Source: a virus
Reading direction: 5' to 3' (one strand)
DNA length: 20,835 nucleotides
IMG/VR virus record: IMGVR_UViG_3300030109_004096
Location: 1-20,835 of that record
Under the pieces are notes generated by a model that was not told the origin of the DNA, made no database searches, and was given only the letters and a program-made list of their open reading frames with translations. Below are positions 603 through 5,333 of this stretch, one piece after another. Within the stretch, counting starts at the first letter, position 1; each line of letters starts with the position of its first letter. Both the position numbers and the translations under genes were made by a program.

Positions 603-2231
603 TTAAAAATTGCGTGATCCAGTTATCCAATTATAAGTTTTTTTGACTGTAAACTTACGTGTTTCGTCTTCTTTTGTTTCAATTTCATCTTTTGACATCC
701 TTTGAGATTTTGGTGCTCTCGCATAATAGTCAGCATAGTATAAAGCATCCATGATGTCATCGTTGCGTGGTTTGGGGTGTTCAAAGAGTTCATCAACCAA
801 TTCCGTCATATGTCTTTGCAGGTATAACTTTTTTGAATTAACAATAGGCCCGAGTGTTGTTTCCAGCCTATCTTCTTTTTTAATTCTTGCTGGCGGCTTC
901 ACTCCTTTAAAAATACCGGGAAGTAGCCTTTTTTCGTTGGCGCTCATTCGTGTCACCATATCTCGCACCATTTCTTGGGCGGCAACAGTCTCAATAGTAA
1001 CTCTCCTTACTGGAGAATATTTCTTTGCCATCTCTATAATTTTTTGCGGAACGTCAAATGTGGGTATTCTTTCTCTAAAGTAGTCAATAACATACCTATT
1101 ATTGTTTGCATCTATACCCATAACTAGTATTACCTGAAAGTCTGATGTTTCCGTTGCTGTAGCGGCAAGGTCAACACCCATATATACATTAACAGGTATT
1201 GCATCTTCCCCTTCAATAATATAGTTAAACCCACCTTCATTCTTAAATACCCCACTATAGTACTGGATTCGATCAATTTTAAAAGAAGCATTGGATATAT
1301 CCCTTGCATCGTTCATATACTCCTGTGCAAACTTATTTACCAGACCCGCTTCGATAAACTCGCGCTTCTTTCTATCCAGCTTTTCAAGAGAGAATTGTTC
1401 AGGCCAAATAGATTTACTATCCTCTACTGCTCGATGAAAGACTACATCCCAAGGATAACTGCGATTGTCTTTCATTGCATTCTTATATCCGTCACACACC
1501 ATCTGTAAAAAGCTATCATAGTGAACAATAGTACCCGATAACCATATCCACCCTTCATTACCGGGGGTTTCTTCTAGCGCTGGATATACTGTAGATACTA
1601 CCCATTTTTTAATTTCTGCTCTACGTTCTGGTGTTTTGGTGTTTAATTCGGATTCAAAGTCATCAAGAACAATACCAGTATAGCGCACATCTACTTCTGC
1701 CCTACCTCTTAACCTTTGTGAAGTACCCTTTGCAATAACACGATCTCCCTTTGGAGTTACAATATCTTTCTCTGTCCACCTCTTTCCTGCTCTTCCACCG
1801 TCCATATTACCAAAGTAGTATTTTATTTTCTTATTTACCTCAAAATGGTTTCGTAAATATTTTAAGTGATCAATAGACTGACTTTGCTCTTCAGACACCC
1901 AAGCAACAAAATGTTGTTGATTCTCTCCAGAAAAGCATAGTTTATGCATAATTGCCGCTTTAGACAGTATAGACTTACCAAAACCTCTTGGCATAACAAT
2001 ACATGTCCTACCTCCGGGGGCAGTACTAATTAATTTTTTAGCAACGTCAAAGTGAAAACTGGGAGAAGCGGACTTATTTAAGAAATCGCGGGGTAAAAAT
2101 GCACGACCAAAGAATACAAGGTCTGTATATGCTTTTGCCAATATCTCATCCCGCTCGGCCATTAAGTTCGGAGCAGGGTTAATATTGAAGTTTGTTATGT
2201 CGTTATTGTCTTTTATGTCTTCAACTGACAT
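603..2231 (-). CDS. terL: Terminase large subunit (ATPase and nuclease)
   Basis: This 542-residue protein is the phage DNA-packaging motor, which pumps DNA into the prohead and cuts the concatemer. The N-terminal ATPase has a Walker A variant PRGFGKS at residues 81-87, a Walker B strand IVLDDFE at 187-193 and an SGT coupling motif at 232-234. The C-terminal RNase H-like nuclease shows D354 (VDLAATATETSD), E414 (TIETVAAQE) and an acidic cluster D491/D492/D495 (NDDIMDALYYAD). Length and motif order are normal for the family. The ATG at 2231 has no strong Shine-Dalgarno. The small subunit lies 81 nt upstream on the same strand, so both are probably on one late transcript. All key catalytic residues are present. 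Confidence 0.95.
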   Translation of the reverse strand: MSVEDIKDNNDITNFNINPAPNLMAERDEILAKAYTDLVFFGRAFLPRDFLNKSASPSFHFDVAKKLISTAPGGRTCIVMPRGFGKSILSKAAIMHKLCFSGENQQHFVAWVSEEQSQSIDHLKYLRNHFEVNKKIKYYFGNMDGGRAGKRWTEKDIVTPKGDRVIAKGTSQRLRGRAEVDVRYTGIVLDDFESELNTKTPERRAEIKKWVVSTVYPALEETPGNEGWIWLSGTIVHYDSFLQMVCDGYKNAMKDNRSYPWDVVFHRAVEDSKSIWPEQFSLEKLDRKKREFIEAGLVNKFAQEYMNDARDISNASFKIDRIQYYSGVFKNEGGFNYIIEGEDAIPVNVYMGVDLAATATETSDFQVILVMGIDANNNRYVIDYFRERIPTFDVPQKIIEMAKKYSPVRRVTIETVAAQEMVRDMVTRMSANEKRLLPGIFKGVKPPARIKKEDRLETTLGPIVNSKKLYLQRHMTELVDELFEHPKPRNDDIMDALYYADYYARAPKSQRMSKDEIETKEDETRKFTVKKTYNWITGSRNF

Positions 2232-2312: not shown

Positions 2313-3044
2313 TTATTCACTTGCCTCTGGTAATAACCCCTGTTCAAATGCTTTTAGCTTTTCTTTTGAGAAACCAGTAAACTCCTGTATCAACGCTACT
2401 GATTCTGATTTCTTTTCTGTATTCAATAAGCCTGATATCTTCATTAATGTTTCTAATGCTCTTAATTTATCTCCATGACGTGCTTTTCTGCTATCTACCA
2501 CACTTTTCATCTCTTCTAACAGATATGTCTTACTAATACCTAGATCATCTAATAATAATTCTATTTCTTTATTTACCATAGTTCTTACTCTCTTTTCTCT
2601 TAATAAAGCCATTGATCTACTACGTGCATAGTCATAATCTTTGGTTTTAAAGCAATTAAGGTAGGCGTTTGCAGGTTTTGCACCCATTGCCACCATCTTT
2701 GCAAAATTCTTTTCTCTTATTGTAGTAATCTTATTATTTTTGTAATTAACAAAGCAGTATACGTTTTTTGCAGGTTCTCCTAATAACTTAGTATATTTCC
2801 CAGTAGAAGCAGTACCAAGCAATGTGCGTATAAAGTCACTCGTACTATTGTTTCTTACACTAGTATCTTTCATGTTCCACCTGTGAATAATACTCATAAC
2901 CTTACCATCGTCTGATTTTATCCATTCTCCAATCTGTGCCTTCCGCCAGTCGGGTACTATTTTTTCGCGGGGGTGATGTTGGCGGAACTCATTTTCATCC
3001 TTGTATAATGTATACTCAACCCCTTTTACTTTTTTCTTGTGCAA
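2313..3044 (-). CDS. terS: Terminase small subunit, TTG start
   Basis: The small subunit recognises packaging DNA and loads the large subunit. Starting at the TTG at 3044 gives 243 residues. This start has GAGG six bases upstream and lies one base after the stop codon of the upstream gene. An upstream ATG at 3104 would overlap that gene by 59 nt and adds a hydrophobic, atypical leader. An N-terminal WIKSDDGK segment (about residues 41-48) resembles the 'DWV..DDGKV' start of many phage small terminases. A helix-turn-helix-like region (about 111-160) with an A.AYL pattern follows, then a helical oligomerisation part containing GDKLRALETLMKISGLL (191-207), typical of the family. Adjacency to the large subunit supports the call. 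Confidence 0.82.
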   Translation of the reverse strand: MHKKKVKGVEYTLYKDENEFRQHHPREKIVPDWRKAQIGEWIKSDDGKVMSIIHRWNMKDTSVRNNSTSDFIRTLLGTASTGKYTKLLGEPAKNVYCFVNYKNNKITTIREKNFAKMVAMGAKPANAYLNCFKTKDYDYARSRSMALLREKRVRTMVNKEIELLLDDLGISKTYLLEEMKSVVDSRKARHGDKLRALETLMKISGLLNTEKKSESVALIQEFTGFSKEKLKAFEQGLLPEASE

Positions 3045-3045
3045 A

Positions 3046-3267
3046 CTAAGCCTCAGCTTCAGTCTCAGAAGTATACAGTAGTACCGGAATATCCATTTCA
3101 TCAATAATAATCATCATCTGCATTACATACTTATAATCTCCCGAAGCCTTGAATTTATCCGATAAGTCTTTTAATATCTCAATGGAAGGCCCCAATTCTA
3201 AAGAACGCTCATAATCGTATAAATCCATAATAGAATATAGATAGCATATAACTATTTTATCAATCAT
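3046..3267 (-). CDS. Small protein upstream of terminase small subunit, unknown function
   Basis: A 73-residue frame ends in an acidic SETEAEA tail one base before the preferred TTG start of the small terminase, so the two are probably translationally coupled. Two starts are possible: ATG 3267, or ATG 3228 giving a 60-residue protein beginning MDLYDYERSLELG. Neither has a clear Shine-Dalgarno. The shorter form looks more natural because the first 13 residues of the longer form are hydrophobic and AT-driven. The sequence is helical and methionine-rich (YVMQMMIIIDEM). I do not recognise a family. It is the first gene of the leftward block and lies next to the divergent control region. Confidence 0.6.
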   Translation of the reverse strand: MIDKIVICYLYSIMDLYDYERSLELGPSIEILKDLSDKFKASGDYKYVMQMMIIIDEMDIPVLLYTSETEAEA

Positions 3268-3328
3268 TTAATTTTTACTTGACAAACAGCTTATATAACA
3301 ATAAATTCAACCGTCCGTTTCAGGACGA

Positions 3329-3448
3329 TACTATTAATACTATTAATAGTACTATTATAGTACTATATAGTAATATTATAGTAATATATAGTACTACTCG
3401 CTATAACTATATATAGTTACTATAGTAATAAATAGTATTATATAGTAC
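3329..3448. repeat. Helically phased TAGTA/TACTA array
   Basis: TAGTA occurs at 3347, 3358, 3368, 3379 and 3389, a mean step of 10.5 bp, then TAGTT at 3414 and TAGTA at 3423, 3433 and 3443. TACTA, its complement, occurs at 3329, 3338, 3350 and 3361. A 16-bp perfect palindrome TAACTATATATAGTTA lies at 3404-3419 between the two half-arrays. The motifs therefore sit on one face of the helix. This could be a cooperative protein-binding site, a bend or an unwinding element. It lies just upstream of the leftward block. Confidence 0.75.
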
Positions 3449-3476: not shown

Positions 3477-3491
3477 ATGTCATAATGACAT
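3477..3491. promoter_or_regulatory. Operator-like palindrome ATGTCATAATGACAT
   Basis: Seven-base arms are perfectly complementary around a central A, the usual shape of a dimeric repressor site. No second copy was seen nearby and the binding protein is unknown. Confidence 0.45.
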
Positions 3492-3691
3492 CATACTTCT
3501 CTCCTACCTAATATTTCTAAAAATTTTAAAAAAATTATATAATTATGTGCGTGTCTCTTTTATTTTGGCGGGCTCCCCCCCTAATCCCATTTCAGGTTGA
3601 GATTTTGAGATTGAAAAAGCCATATTGAATTATATCTGGTTGCAATATCGGATCGGTTAACAGTGCCATGTGAAAATAATTTAAAATAAAT

Positions 3692-3770: not shown

Positions 3771-3799
3771 GATAGGGCTCTAATTCTGACCTGAAATAA

Positions 3800-3826
3800 C
3801 CTACCTCAGGGGCGCAAGGCGGTAGG
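3800..3826 (+). promoter_or_regulatory. G/C-rich leader hairpin upstream of gene 3900
   Basis: Arms CCTACC (3800-3805) and GGTAGG (3821-3826) enclose a purine-rich loop. The downstream leader adds a small AAGG/CCTT hairpin near 3840-3850. The leader is much richer in G and C than the surrounding DNA, which suggests conserved structure. No riboswitch class was recognised. Confidence 0.4.
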
Positions 3827-3899
3827 CAGAAGAAGAGATAAGGCATCCTTAGGGACAGTGTCTAGATGTTGGTTATAACTTATAAGTAAGGAGTACAAA

Positions 3900-4211
3900 A
3901 TGAAAGATGTGTACAGTACAATAGAAAATATCTTAGAATATAATTTATCTGTAAAAGATAGATATATTCTAAGTGAATTAAACGAATCCAAAACAGTTCA
4001 GGTAAGAACTACGAATTGGAATACACATTATAAAATACTATCATCTTTAGATGATCCTAAATATGGTGATAGATTAAATAATACGATACGTGAAGGGTGG
4101 TGCGAAGGGTTAAATAGACGAAAAGGTTCTGAAGGAGAAGAGTTTGTTCAATCAGGGTTAGAACATGGAGATATACAAGTGATAGAAGTTAGATTCAGAA
4201 AGGCGGTGTAA
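3900..4211 (+). CDS. First rightward gene, unknown function (103 aa)
   Basis: The start is well supported by AAGGAG at 3888-3893, six bases before the ATG. The protein is soluble and mixed-charge, with an N-terminal helical part (STIENILEYNLSVKDRYILSEL) and a Gly-rich, charged middle (GLNRRKGSEGEEF). The 15 bases from 3888 to 3902, AAGGAGTACAAAATG, recur exactly at the 4743 gene, suggesting a shared or duplicated initiation cassette. As the first gene after the control region it is likely expressed early. No domain was recognised. Confidence 0.75.
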   Translation: MKDVYSTIENILEYNLSVKDRYILSELNESKTVQVRTTNWNTHYKILSSLDDPKYGDRLNNTIREGWCEGLNRRKGSEGEEFVQSGLEHGDIQVIEVRFRKAV

Positions 4212-4951: not shown

Positions 4952-4976
4952 GTCTAATTTTAAATTTAATACCGCC

Positions 4977-5148
4977 AATTCACGTAACTAGATCAGCGCT
5001 AAAAACCATTTTATAGGCGCAATTCACGTAGCTAGATACTATTATATATATTATTCGGTCAATTCACGTAATTAACTATTAAATAACGTAAATTCACGTA
5101 ATTAGCTCTAATTTGGCTATTATAGAGAGATAATTCACGTAACTAGCT
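4977..5148. repeat. Five iterons AATTCACGTAryTArvT, candidate replication origin
   Basis: Seventeen-base direct repeats lie at 4977-4993, 5021-5037, 5061-5077, 5091-5107 and 5132-5148. All five share AATTCACGTA, then TA and a final T. Start-to-start steps are 44, 40, 30 and 41 bp, close to four, four, three and four helical turns. They occupy a gene-free gap between a strong terminator and a promoter. Iterons beside AT-rich DNA are typical of initiator-bound origins; a repressor operator array is the alternative. A replication-initiator-like gene lies at 10919. Confidence 0.85.
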
Positions 5149-5290
5149 TGTATTAGCTTAAATCAATAAAACGTGCTTAAAGGTATCAATTACCATTTAA
5201 TTATATTATATATAAATAAGCACTAACAAGAATAAAAACAAGGCGCGGTTTTTTATACTATTATTACATCTAAATAAATAAATATTAATT
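5149..5290. other. AT-rich segment beside iterons, possible unwinding element
   Basis: This stretch has long A/T runs, densest at 5185-5222 and 5255-5290, and no gene. Positioned directly after the iterons it could be the melting region of an origin. A short AAAAAC/GTTTTT hairpin lies around 5234-5253. Nothing else was seen. Confidence 0.4.
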
Positions 5291-5293
5291 ATT

Positions 5294-5333
5294 TTGGAAC
5301 TTTTATTGATTACGTGCATTTACAGGGTATGAA
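5294..5333 (+). promoter_or_regulatory. GGAACTT-class promoter before gene 5360
   Basis: GGAACTT at 5296-5302 is preceded by TT. The -10-like TTTACA begins about 16 bases later, and TATGAA lies exactly 25 bases after GGAACTT (5328-5333). Between the two boxes, GATTACGTGCATT (5308-5320) matches the inverted iteron core at 11 of 13 bases, so the iteron-binding protein might also control this promoter. Confidence 0.6.

Follow-up and report, generated by a model that had tools for sequence, protein, structure and literature searches.

A promoter-coupled array of TACTA/TAGTA words at the early/late boundary of uncultured marine phages, a candidate site for a nucleating and spreading protein

Introduction

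What does a 120-bp run of TACTA and TAGTA words do between the terminase genes and the early genes of a marine virus? The original prediction, made from a single stretch of DNA, placed it at the early/late divergence, with TAGTA motifs phased on one face of the helix on both sides of a central 16-bp palindrome, and proposed that it may be a cooperative binding site for a regulator, a bent or melting element, or a segregation or packaging site. That stretch, here called the window, comprises positions 1 to 20,835 (20,835 bases) of the IMG/VR virus record IMGVR_UViG_3300030109_004096 and belongs to a widespread family of uncultured marine viruses of bacteria. The phage collection that we searched held no isolate of the family at a TerL identity above 60%; isolated phages had no DNA similarity to the window region and gave no tblastn match to its TerS. 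TerL alignment, used to look for a host, found no relative in GTDB genomes, and Rfam gave no match.

The leftward genes up to 3228 encode TerL, TerS and a small acidic ORF. About 40 small early ORFs occupy the rightward strand between 3900 and 18 kb, and the far end of the window carries a leftward ORF of 906 aa.

603..2231, minus strand: terminase large subunit (TerL)
2313..3044, minus strand: terminase small subunit (TerS), by phrog_51, Terminase_2 in 29 of 37 members, and predicted fold
3046..3228, minus strand: small acidic ORF, 60 aa, kept between the array and TerS in part of the family

The predicted model of TerS was closest to the small terminases of NV1, PaP3, E217 and Sf6.

Results

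We analyzed the array by motif counts, repeat finding and comparison of relatives, and mapped the following elements, none of which has an assigned strand.

3329..3448: array of TpA steps with TACTA/TAGTA words, 120 bp
3347..3354: TAGTACTA dyad nearest the promoter, 68 bp from the start of the -35
3358..3365: second TAGTACTA dyad, from the sequence
3389..3396: third TAGTACTA dyad, from the sequence
3404..3419: 16-bp palindrome TAACTATATATAGTTA, among the listed arrays only in the window's clade
3418..3427: TACTATAGTA palindrome, a word ~1000-fold enriched in arrays relative to the rest of the loci

The TAGTA words start at 3347, 3358, 3368, 3379 and 3389 (steps of 11, 10, 11 and 10 bp) and again at 3423, 3433 and 3443 (steps of 10 and 10 bp), as first described, and the 9-bp step reported earlier is due to TAGTT at 3414. 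The palindrome at 3404-3419 had also been read correctly and is perfect over its 16 bp. Tandem Repeats Finder placed a 21-bp unit over 3329-3447, and the autocorrelation against shuffled sequence that had been proposed as a check peaked at lag 21 (z of 3.2, family-wise p of 0.04 with dinucleotide shuffles). The period of 10.5 bp had a p-value of 0.0025 against shuffled TA units, a stricter null with the maximum taken over periods 7-14, in a test that was prompted by the finding itself. The number of TAGTA and TACTA words alone was ordinary for the composition (14 versus 11.1, p of 0.06).

Relatives were collected in two sets, one from a TerL search and one from the conserved flanking element, and lineage counts were based on k-mer de-duplication. 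Among 70 TerS loci with 600 bp or more of upstream sequence, 69 had the array; this set includes near-duplicates as well as a few loci that an array word had retrieved. All of the TerL-fetched loci that reach the same upstream length had it. Locus L108, which has the most divergent TerS (37% identity), was without the array. In relatives the array is 120-200 bp long and always adjoins terS, 55-340 bp upstream of it. Along the TerS strand, the region begins with a 110-bp non-coding element (G-run, A-tracts) and one or two CGCGGGTACTA boxes, continues with the array, CGGTTGA or a hairpin and the reverse complement of TTGACA, and ends with the small ORF (in part of the family) and terS. Between relatives the array mostly had 5-35% gaps while the promoter, the flanking element and terS mostly had 0-4%, and from this difference the array appears to turn over by slippage and duplication under a constrained grammar. 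The array is rewritten fast and almost never lost. The view of it as a special element at the early/late divergence was borne out, in that it is selected and is kept in close and distant relatives.

On the other hand, the helical phase was not kept between relatives, which is the very outcome that the original prediction had set against its helix-face claim, and we abandon that claim. The repeat unit was lineage-specific, with 21 bp in the window, 9 bp in L052 and about 8 bp in L067. When 24 distinct arrays (window and relatives) were pooled, the period of 10.5 bp was absent (z of 0.7) while spacings of 8-9 bp dominated (z of 5-7); the favored distances were 5, 8, 9 and 16-19 bp. Since the unit differs by lineage, the phase in the window reflects its local 21-bp unit. 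Neither the multiples of 10.5 bp of a helically phased operator array nor the near-identical direct repeats of one unit that mark an iteron array were kept across relatives. Similarly, the central palindrome is real in the window but local to its clade, and the widely shared dyads are TACTATAGTA and TAGTACTA.

In the pooled arrays, 89% of the TpA gaps were 2 or 3 bp as compared to 77.5% in dinucleotide shuffles, and the longest TpA chain had 28.7 steps as compared to 12.6. C/G was nearly confined to ACT/AGT inside TACTA/TAGTA, the DNA being otherwise A/T, and 343 of the 629 single-base spacers were C/G. TACTATAGTA occurred 39 times in the 24 distinct arrays (3.9 kb; 10/kb) and twice in the 208 kb outside them (0.01/kb), with one of the outside copies in a second TA array beside the iterons of L014. 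We also shuffled the TA units within each array, which keeps the grammar and destroys the order. Relative to this null, TACTATAGTA was sevenfold enriched (39 versus 5.6) and TAGTACTA nearly threefold (38 versus 14). The TAGTACTA dyad nearest the promoter lay 64-78 bp from the -35 element, or ~30-40 bp past the predicted transcription start, in 17 of the 24 lineages, while 500 shuffles gave a mean of 1.9 and a maximum of 7. Among 15 longer records, TATAGTACTA words were nearly all in terS-proximal or iteron-linked arrays. Literature matches to the dyad words came only from papers on unrelated subjects, and a conserved 22-mer of the promoter-near array had no match in GTDB genomes. The window's clade has a further perfect palindrome, ATGTCATAATGACAT, at 3477-3491, in the gap that separates the array from the conserved element.

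A predicted promoter in front of the array is directed into it and would place the array at about +15 to +135 of the transcript.

3234..3263, minus strand: predicted divergent promoter TTGATA-N18-TATATT, leaderless, with its start about at the small ORF ATG
3279..3307, plus strand: predicted sigma70-type promoter into the array, TTGACA at 3279-3284, N17, TAAATT at 3302-3307
3312..3327, plus strand: hairpin CGTCC..GGACG at the 5' end of the predicted transcript, two of five pairs with compensatory changes

TTGAC followed by TANNNT at a spacer of 17 or 18 was present in 32 of 32 aligned lineages, an alignment in which L083 reads TTGCC and from which L106, having no recognizable anchor, was left out; spacers of 15, 16, 19 and 20 gave 1, 0, 0 and 2 cases, respectively. 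All cells (100%) of the 5' hairpin were paired in the 7 sequences of the window's clade, and its compensatory changes support real transcription. The divergent promoter, on the other side, would begin the transcription of terS. The neighboring early-side gene is reversed, against the array promoter, in L014, L055 and L058, so not every lineage can be using the array promoter simply to make early mRNA; this promoter is kept even where it is unable to make the adjoining gene's mRNA. Comparison of L041 with L069 gave 99% identity in the array, 100% in the promoter and 77% in terS, and that of L052 with L056 gave 99% in the array, 76% in the flanking element and 83% in terS. By these values, array and promoter have moved as a unit among phages whose TerS differ. 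Separately, dense TA steps extend for ~170 bp behind a TTGACA-N18-TATAAT promoter at the early/late boundary of an unrelated phage that carries a phiEco32-like amidoligase gene (MW202697.1; L136:2990-3185). This region, a weak match to another lineage's, is a plain TA-run without TACTA words, and we rejected homology.

Two elements lie on the early side of the array, neither with an assigned strand.

3519..3629: conserved non-coding element with A-tracts, (A/T)AAATAAAAGAGACRCACATA and a C7/G7 run at 3575-3581
4975..5150: iteron cluster of the TACGTGAATT type, ~1.6 kb from the array

The element at 3519-3629 was 73-87% identical across lineages and reads CAACCT..GATT-GGGGGG-N16-AAATAAAAGAGACRCACATA-A-tracts over its 110 bp on the TerS strand; L010 carries a C-run in place of the G-run, as if the core were inverted. 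The iteron cluster is likely to be the main replication origin. Iterons of this type occur in 4-7 copies, 1.4-2.4 kb from the array in most lineages, and were seen in the window, L014, L016, L067, L077, L083, L089, L117 and L133. TA-rich arrays of the same vocabulary adjoin the iterons in six loci (L014, L067, L077, L083, L085 and L089). Perfect DnaA boxes beside a TA array were found only at the L014 iterons, where TACTATAGTA lies beside them.

Several other features were seen on this side. A GGAACTTTT motif upstream of early genes near the iterons (window 5295-5305, L055, L067 and L083) may be a promoter element for early or middle genes that uses another type of sigma. In L051, L058, L055 and L014 the DNA from array to iterons is a cassette site: a DUF932-like gene of about 320-350 aa is present in either orientation, accompanied by unrelated DNA, and homology stops close to the conserved G-run element. 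An inversion of this cassette between L051 and L058 was rejected in favor of replacement, the genes being unlike at the DNA level. The leader of the early gene at 3900 contains CCTGA..CCTACC..TCAGG..GGTAGG (window 3790-3830), which may fold into an H-type pseudoknot; it is identical in L016 and has no Rfam match.

Discussion

We tentatively favor a promoter-coupled site on which a TACTA-reading protein would nucleate and spread, controlling the early/late boundary. In this view, proteins would assemble on the array as one part of a conserved control region that lies between the late (terminase-first) transcription unit and the rightward early one, with the sigma70-type promoter (-35 at 3279, -10 at 3302) reading into the array. 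A putative TACTA/TAGTA-reading protein, either a host nucleoid protein or a phage regulator, would first occupy the TAGTACTA/TACTATAGTA dyads near the promoter, from which it would spread along the flexible, easily opened TpA chain; the promoter may in this way be repressed or gated, which would contribute to setting the boundary. Recognition by a protein is preferred over melting alone because C/G fills more than half of the single-base spacers, the dyads are enriched and one dyad is fixed in position. Site spacing that is not helically phased across the family counts against this reading, as does the reversed early-side gene of L014, L055 and L058, and the 42 early ORFs of the window included no helix-turn-helix or nucleoid-protein family, most of them matching nothing.

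Nucleation and spreading of the H-NS type uses high-affinity core sites and a long permissive AT-rich tract near a promoter, and the array would combine like features. Known H-NS, MvaT and Lsr2 sites prefer pure A/T, whereas the array keeps C/G inside TACTA/TAGTA. A protein with such a DNA taste exists: the winged-helix protein Rok from Bacillus subtilis has a preference for multiple TpA steps and for AACTA, TACTA and ATATA (PMC6212790). The array has TACTA, ATATA, many TpA steps and no A-tracts in common with the regions of this xenogeneic silencer (PMC6212790); it is enriched for TACTA and TpA, and the lack of A-tracts follows from its TpA spacing. However, AACTA, ATCTA and TTCTA, which Rok accepts as well, occur rarely in these arrays, and no Rok or Rok-like gene was found, so the parallel is one of DNA taste and not of membership.

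Melting remains a strong rival, and with cooperative binding it makes up the two best of the functions first proposed, now without the helix-face argument. As a promoter-coupled unwinding element, the array would be a second, transcription-activated origin, where transcription melts the TpA chain and supplies an RNA that primes or assists replication, an account that we regard as possible if rather doubtful. In the window (z of 4.1) and in the complete 42-kb relative G001 (z of 4.8), the lowest stability over 120 bp is that of the array. The promoter always reads into it, its transcript cannot be the neighbor's mRNA where that gene is reversed, and arrays of the same vocabulary adjoin the iterons. 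Cumulative GC skew turns at 3.0-3.5 kb, but the skew follows gene orientation and is confounded by it. The iteron origin lies elsewhere, melting needs neither C/G spacers nor exact dyads, and we found no polymerase or helicase to be primed. Both the primary origin of T7 and oriF of T4 have a promoter followed by an AT-rich or unwinding region. The window likewise has a promoter reading into an easily opened AT-rich segment but differs in its separate iteron cluster and in exact dyads that melting leaves unexplained. Bacterial DnaA-trio origin elements are runs of TAG/TAA-like triplets. The array has such runs too, but its TpA steps alternate between 2 and 3 bp and so hold no steady triplet register. 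A broader account, somewhat unlikely in our judgment, is that an element selected for its DNA grammar (TpA every 2-3 bp plus TACTA/TAGTA dyads) rather than for a sequence, and opened by a nucleating-spreading protein or by transcription serves as both an early/late switch and an iteron-side origin opening region.

We consider it unlikely that the array is a packaging site, with a ring of small terminase binding it and the G-run element to start headful packaging. The pac/cos regions of P22, SPP1 and lambda lie upstream of or inside terS. The array resembles them in always lying next to terS, while terS and terL are parted by other genes in several lineages; G001 has a P22-like portal, and the self-closing records of G001 and G005 are joined at different places, as expected of circularly permuted genomes. 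It differs in being exchanged independently of terS sequence, near-identical arrays lying beside TerS genes only 77-83% alike, and in its absence from L108, which keeps TerS, TerL and the G-run element, so that the array does not occur wherever this TerS/TerL pair does. Contig ends showed no sharp pile-up at one base, and G001 and G005 close away from it. A cos site at the G-run, considered as the main idea, was rejected since contigs run through it and these two records close elsewhere.

It is less probable still that the array acts as RNA, as a leader with repeated UAGUACUA hairpins that is bound or folded in the transcript. The 5' hairpin with its two compensatory pairs speaks for this, as does the stronger folding of array transcripts relative to dinucleotide shuffles (mean z of -2.1), but once the TA units were kept the z was only -0.8, as palindromes alone would give, and several lineages' arrays have little self-pairing; we set array RNA structure aside as weak. 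A neutral slippage tract in an AT-rich intergenic region, though it would suit array indels that far exceed those of the flanks and a separate unit in each lineage, is very improbable given the near-universal presence, the kept grammar, the 1000-fold dyad enrichment and the fixed dyad.

The array is thus probably a docking or opening site that switches on virus genes or DNA copying. It represents a regulatory element in which a physical grammar is conserved and the sequence is not, and alignment-based searches for regulatory DNA would miss such an element. If a protein does read the array, the array would serve as bait in the search for that protein and also give the specificity to expect of it.
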